This document shows positions 55,429 to 55,892 of a DNA stretch of 64,000 nt, piece after piece. Each line of letters opens with the position of its first letter. The stretch's first letter is position 1. The stretch is from Clostridium sp. 'deep sea' (lineage in GTDB: Bacteria; Bacillota; UBA994; PWPR01). The stretch is taken from the NCBI RefSeq assembly GCF_014931565.1, contig NZ_CP063353.1, positions 2,294,001 to 2,358,000 of the forward strand. The letters are read 5' to 3'. A program made the position numbers and the translations under genes. The notes beneath the pieces were generated by a model. That model worked only from the letters and a program-made list of their open reading frames with translations, ran no database searches and was not told the origin of the DNA.

Positions 55429-55892
55429 AAAAGGGGGCTGTCGCATGATAAACCTAGCAAAGTAATTTACTAATTTTAATTGCTTTATCAAAACATTTTT
55501 GTAGATGATTAATGACTTTAATGAAATACAGTTAAAATAATCCTTACAACTAAATTTTATTTTAGTTAATTATTATGTAAAGTCTCATTCTTAAACCACC
55601 AATTATGTTAAATTCTAATATCTCTTTGTGCTCTTTGTGCACTTAGTGTTTAGAATATTTTAACTAATTGGAGAGTGAAATTTATGTAACAACAATATGT
55701 GAGGCTTTAAAATCAAGCTTAAGGTAAATATTTAATGTTTTAGAAACCACCAAGTGCACTAAGTGAAATGAAGGTGTGGCAGGTTTATGATAATCCTTAC
55801 GCCTCAGCACCTTCATCTGTAGTTCTTTTATATGTTTATATTAGTTTTGATTAGGTCTTCTTTTTGTAAAGCTAGTGCAACAGCCCCCTTTT
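55429..55892. mobile_element. MITE-like element with 17-bp terminal inverted repeats
   Basis: Left end AAAAGGGGGCTGTCGCA (55429-55445) and right end TGCAACAGCCCCCTTTT (55876-55892) are inverted repeats with one mismatch, 464 bp apart. There is no ORF of transposase type. Ends with GGGGCTGTCGCA-like sequence resemble those of several insertion sequences, so this is likely a non-autonomous derivative. Flanks ATAATTA and ATAAGTTA may be a decayed target duplication. Inside are 9-nt repeats (CTTTGTGCT, CTTTGTGCA, CTTAGTGTT) near 55623-55650 and an inverted partner near 55750-55765. Confidence 0.78.
55623..55766. repeat. Short 9-nt periodic repeats inside the MITE-like element
   Basis: On the plus strand three consecutive 9-nt units CTTTGTGCT, CTTTGTGCA, CTTAGTGTT; about 110 nt later the same type appears in inverse orientation (CACCAAGTG, CACTAAGTG). 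The two can pair and fold the element's centre. Confidence 0.65.

Follow-up and report, generated by a model that had tools for sequence, protein, structure and literature searches.

The 9-nt periodic repeats inside a 464-bp intergenic element of Clostridium sp. 'deep sea' are, in the reading that we prefer and to which we assign a probability of about 50%, the characteristic, cognate ends of a widespread and apparently undescribed family of elements whose sole gene encodes a GxxExxY protein, and the copy described here is a decayed MITE that carries one unit of them. The arms formed by these repeats, their specificity for one gene family, the matching of the two arms within a locus, their co-occurrence with the gene at the genome level, and their copy number in this genome were all directly observed.

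The element occupies positions 55429–55892 of the 64,000-nucleotide stretch of DNA that was analyzed (the window), between a DUF1287 gene (PF06940) on one side and hcp (Prismane, PF03063) on the other, and no ORF of ≥ 60 amino acids overlaps it. It is bounded by terminal inverted repeats (TIRs) of 17 nt that are 94% complementary, the left one (AAAAGGGGGCTGTCGCA) at 55429–55445 on the plus strand and the right one at 55876–55892 on the minus strand. These results agree with the initial annotation, which described a non-coding element between the same two genes with 17-bp TIRs containing one mismatch. The flanks and ends read ATTA / AAAAGG...CCTTTT / ATAA, in which no clear target duplication is apparent. 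Alignment with the other genomic copies, in which the same left TIR end (AGGGGCTGTYGCATTAG) recurs, defined a left sub-terminal part (55446–55558, plus strand) and a conserved right end (55811–55892, plus strand) that is 96% identical over 81 bp to the right end of the other copies. The same alignment shows a gap in the window copy at 55445/55446, where it lacks 128 bp that the left part of the 96% identical copy contains (G000:189.7 kb; G000 is the genome of this organism). The interior (55559–55823, plus strand; element positions 131–395) is a single, circularly permuted unit of a 285-bp array repeat. This unit contains an F arm of three 9-nt units, CTTTGTGCT CTTTGTGCA CTTAGTGTT (55624–55650, plus strand), an R arm (55745–55765, plus strand) that consists of ACC followed by the two inverted 9-nt units CACCAAGTG CACTAAGTG at 55748–55765, and an internal hairpin, GAAGGTG...CACCTTC (55768–55816, plus strand), which is the module "hp" of the array unit. 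The three units and the inverted pair are therefore present as originally described, and they form tandem 9-nt units in both orientations, with a conserved heptamer and a free 2-nt linker.

This 9-nt pattern is not due to chance, because tandem heptamers of the F/R-arm type occur in the 64-kb window only inside the element, and 20,000 first-order simulations of 464 bp yielded any such heptamer pair 3 times and pairs in both orientations 0 times. The suggestion that the arms could fold into a long hairpin in the transcript was not borne out for the window copy, for which the fold prediction gave 0.0 and 0.27 expected pairs between the F and R arms on the two strands. The whole element folds better than shuffled sequences (z about −4.5), mainly through the TIRs and the internal hairpin. 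The order of the arms in the window copy is F–R, versus R–F around genes; this order fits a permuted array unit and counts against our preferred reading.

The 3.83-Mb, single-contig genome of the organism contains one near-complete relative of the element at 96% identity and two at 84%, together with several fragments. Thus, the search for copies in the same and related genomes, as initially proposed, succeeded for the organism itself, where the copies are diverged, and failed for 40 other genomes, one of the same genus among them, in which no copy was found. In the same-genus genome, hcp is present with different neighbors, and neither an empty site nor conservation of the sequence at this locus was found. 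A search of a plasmid collection with the element DNA gave no match, and an Rfam scan of the element gave no family at the gathering score and nothing near the threshold. The parent insertion sequence (IS) that was expected to share the ends of the element was not found in this genome: there were 10 matches to the end AGGGGCTGTYGCATTAG with ≤ 1 mismatch, and none were paired around a transposase-sized interval. A diverged parent IS, or one in another genome, may exist. A 659-bp relative of the TIR element with a different interior lies at G000:1747522–1748180. The MITE-like character of the element is thus borne out by its TIRs, the absence of ORFs, its several diverged copies, and the lack of conservation in relatives, and it represents an old MITE-like family in decay, with no recognized parent. 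The window copy is best read as a decayed, internally deleted, small TIR-bounded non-autonomous element carrying one foreign repeat unit. It resembles IS-derived MITEs in being TIR-bounded, non-coding, and multi-copy, and differs from them in the lack of a detected parent IS and in the foreign unit. The TIRs and the several copies would also be explained by a plain MITE of an IS with the ends GGGGCTGTYGCA, in which the 9-nt pattern is an incidental part of the interior. We consider this highly improbable, because the 9-nt unit also occurs in tandem arrays and at loci without those TIRs, which contradicts such an origin, and around GxxExxY genes of other phyla. The initial remark that transposition alone does not explain the pattern was correct, as the pattern is that of a distinct repeat family linked to GxxExxY nuclease genes.

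In long matches, element positions 131–395 are 72–77% identical to the units of tandem arrays elsewhere in the genome. One array, at G000:114.5–118.6 kb, has a period of about 285 bp and is divided by an IS110 element; a second, at G000:49.6–51.1 kb, has periods of 285 and 340; and a third, short array lies at G000:3345.7–3346.4 kb. Every array unit has a forward set of 9-nt units and an inverted one, so that R and F alternate along the array, and the pattern CTTNGTGNNCTTNGTG had 144 matches with ≤ 1 mismatch in the genome, versus 10 for the reversed pattern. A GxxExxY gene (TIGR04256/PDDEXK_3) ends about 150 bp before the start of the array at G000:114.5–118.6 kb. The identity of the element interior with the 285-bp array unit, and the position of one array beside this gene, support the interpretation of the arms as ends of GxxExxY elements; the absence of an upstream arm at the same gene argues against it. 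The second GxxExxY gene of this genome is a pseudogene with matching inverted arms (AACCGCAAAGTTCGCTAAG / CTTTGCGCTCTTTGCGGTT) and a different heptamer. A second type of arm array, with a period of about 235 bp and its own heptamer units, CTTTGTGTCCTTCGAGTCCTTTGTGGT and ACCACAAGAACACCAAGAACACGAAG, was found near flagellin genes at G000:122951–123443.

A REP-associated tyrosine transposase (RAYT) of the same genome, mobilizing the array unit as a BIME, was also considered. The genome gave 12 RAYT-profile matches, from about 11 genes, and one RAYT gene, at G000:48.2 kb, lies about 0.9 kb from one array; the array unit also contains hairpins. However, this RAYT gene is flanked not by 9-nt arms but by several palindromes of its own, GTAGGGGCGAACCTCGTGTTCGCC, which are probably its REPs, and no RAYT gene adjoins the other two arrays. 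The window unit shares no GTAG/GGAG-marked palindrome with the RAYT locus, where the palindromes are different. We therefore rejected RAYT as the mobilizer, since the REPs at its locus differ from the 9-nt arms, and regard a RAYT/REP origin as very improbable. As a system, REP/BIME sequences with RAYT (REPtrons and REPINs; PMC2817692; PMC3116915) are similar to the GxxExxY loci in that dispersed, non-coding hairpin repeats are tied to one small nuclease gene. However, RAYT is a Y1 HUH enzyme acting with GTAG/GGAG-marked palindromes, whereas the GxxExxY protein is Cas4-like and its arms are 9-nt periodic and unmarked.

An alignment of 45 members of the GxxExxY family showed invariant E26, Y29, D66, E76, K78, and Q90, with Y94 near-invariant. 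We take D66 and E76-x-K78, together with Q90...Y94, to be a PD-(D/E)XK core with an intact RecB/Cas4-type QxxxY motif. The best PDB match of the structure model (pLDDT 97.4) was Cas4 SSO0001, with lambda exonuclease also among the closest, and no solved structure of a sequence relative was found in the search. The model indicates a minimal PD-(D/E)XK fold of the Cas4/lambda-exonuclease/RecB type, and the conserved catalytic-type residues, together with the proximity of the model to Cas4 and lambda exonuclease, make it likely that the protein is an active nuclease. Searches of phage and viral-contig collections with the protein gave no relative.

Relatives of the GxxExxY gene from many phyla are flanked by inverted arms of one design, 8- or 9-nt periodic and of the ACC-RYN-RAG type. 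In the complete layout, an R arm (ACC-ACN-RAG-NN..., with units ACCAC-NRAG) lies upstream of the gene and an F arm (...CTY-NGT-GGT, with units CTYN-GTGGT) lies downstream. The heptamer differs among loci, but the two arms of any one locus share it (CACAGAG, CACGAAG, CACGGAG, CGCAAAG, CATGAAG, CACAGAT, CGCGGAT, and others). Using a motif-free test, we compared the upstream 300 bp with the inverted downstream 300 bp at 78 GxxExxY loci, with the flanks of different genes as the control. Flank pairs from the same locus had a median score of 36 and mismatched pairs one of 19 (p = 1.8e-31, for 78 loci that are not phylogenetically independent), and 33 of the 78 loci were above the 99th percentile, versus 1 of 63 for far flanks about 1 kb away. 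One batch of loci was picked by closeness to the GxxExxY protein of this organism, and arm matching was also seen in a batch picked by the family profile only. Convincing arms were absent at about a third of the loci, which weighs against the preferred reading. Measured with a 16-nt window, periodicity at lag 9 was present in 27% versus 3% of flanks, and at lag 8 in 16% versus 3%. Within the runs, the heptamer was conserved at 0.92–1.0 except at position 4, and the 2-nt linkers were free (0.41 and 0.31). In two genomes (G181 and G108; loci L261 and L262), the GxxExxY gene lies directly 3' of a gene ending that resembles a reverse transcriptase; between the two upstream arms, the CACAGAG heptamers are conserved and the linker bases are not.

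Co-occurrence was examined in 149 genomes of one phylum, centered on a Planctomyces sp. record, of which 70 had a GxxExxY gene and 79 did not. The former contained 752 copies of CTYYGTGNNCTYYGTGG and the latter 119 (p = 1e-6), a 6-fold excess, whereas the reversed pattern occurred 16 and 13 times, respectively. Eight genomes without the gene had ≥ 4 motif copies, a point against the preferred reading, although several of the eight may be incomplete. Arm similarity also tracked protein similarity, including among pairs with < 50% identity (Mantel r = 0.225, p = 0.0015), a correlation that may reflect the common descent of gene and arms.

Genes of the four-helix-bundle family TIGR02436, to which the ORF of 23S rRNA intervening sequences (IVSs) belongs, have the same inverted-arm layout with quite different arm sequences, and 17 of 27 such loci were above the 99th percentile. 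Within the same phylum sample, the arm core was present in 19 of 24 GxxExxY arms and in 0 of 17 TIGR02436 arms. As the arms of the two families share no core, each protein family seems to be paired with a cognate repeat, which speaks against a single generic hairpin as the target of both. The shared layout, on the other side, indicates that a nuclease is not required for it, which weighs against the preferred reading. The TIGR02436 loci (L182–L211) have inverted 7–9-nt periodic arms such as GGGGTTA, GAACTCAAG, AGTTGATAG, and GGAATTAG, among others. The presence of a second, unrelated protein family with this layout could also mean that the arms are independent hairpin repeats, and that the GxxExxY or four-helix-bundle gene, as a homing-type passenger, enters their loops in the way that IS elements enter REPs. 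Gene-less R–F hairpins, some almost loop-free, and the IS110 element inside one array are also consistent with this explanation, but each protein family has arms of its own, arm similarity tracks protein similarity, and genomes that lack the gene contain far fewer motif copies, so we regard it as rather doubtful. Compact, almost loop-free hairpins of inverted CACAGAG arms were seen, for example, in G095 (L265 and L267).

GxxExxY genes are inserted in the sense orientation between co-directional neighbors (++ 28, −− 3, p = 4.6e-6), which suggests a dependence on host transcription. This orientation, and the layout shared with the IVS ORF family, would also be expected of an IVS-like RNA element, in which the arms pair in the host transcript and enclose the ORF, RNase III excises it, and the insertion is harmless. 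In the 23S rRNA IVS of Coxiella, a 28-bp terminal stem is cleaved by RNase III (PMC4990558). However, among the mismatches between the arms, those compatible with G-U pairing on the sense RNA were not enriched (88 versus 85), the number of arm units varies freely, and the arms of the window copy are not predicted to pair with each other. We therefore consider such an element unlikely, although RNA processing at the arms is possible. The 23S rRNA IVSs with an S23/four-helix-bundle ORF (PMC4990558) are similar to the GxxExxY loci in having a small ORF inside terminal inverted repeats, in their sporadic occurrence, and in an inferred horizontal spread. The GxxExxY loci differ in lying outside rRNA, in encoding a PD-(D/E)XK nuclease, in having variable 8/9-nt periodic arms, and in the lack of an RNA-pairing signature. 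The window element itself was rejected as a 23S rRNA IVS, as it lies between DUF1287 and hcp, is ORF-free, and has no Rfam family at the gathering score.

A second MITE family encloses arms of this kind. In one unrelated genome, from the Planctomyces-centered sample (G063; L254–L259), dispersed MITEs of 185–274 bp with the TIR GAGCYTGTTTAAAA and TNA-type flank duplications surround inverted CACAGAG arms, and the upstream arm has two to eight units in near-identical copies. Taken with the window family, this indicates that a TIR element around such arms arose at least twice, and the variation among near-identical copies indicates that the number of arm units changes fast.

Under the preferred reading of the arms as cognate ends, and judging from the sequence patterns, the GxxExxY nuclease would recognize or cut the sequence of its own arms, either as dimer sites or as a cruciform, and repair or replication of the cut could then generate copies of gene-bearing elements, gene-less R–F units, and tandem arrays. 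Ordinary MITEs would then pick up arm units passively, as in the window copy. For gene-bearing elements, neither an empty site nor a target duplication was found, and we therefore infer the mobility of GxxExxY elements, like the binding and cutting of the arms, rather than observe it. More tentatively, the GxxExxY and TIGR02436 genes might together define a new class of mobile element, in which the ends, rather than being fixed sequences, are tandem arms of short period that evolve together with the protein and are regenerated by slippage. Each lineage would then have its own "end code," and the scattered heptamer repeats of many bacteria would be the footprints of this class.

Short tandem repeats described previously include the STRR of cyanobacteria, TAACTGA of Beggiatoaceae (PMC4679880), and GGGNATC of Xanthomonas and Nostoc (PMC4692102). 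Like the GxxExxY arms, they consist of intergenic, short-period tandem units of variable number in distant phyla. They were reported, however, as direct repeats with no cognate gene, whereas the GxxExxY arms are inverted around a specific gene. In PMC4679880, a repeat-binding protein is put forward as the possible mobile element, but no such protein is identified. In the open-access papers searched, we found neither the motif strings in a bacterial context nor a link between them and GxxExxY, and no gene linked to STRR-type repeats; GxxExxY was mentioned in passing only, and PF13366 in an unrelated context only. For decades, short tandem or heptamer intergenic repeats have been described with no known maker, and two small protein families are now candidate makers. 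If this is true, it would provide the first function for the very widespread unknown family TIGR04256/PF13366, and our results suggest that the puzzling 9-nt repeats have been left by a type of mobile element not yet described.
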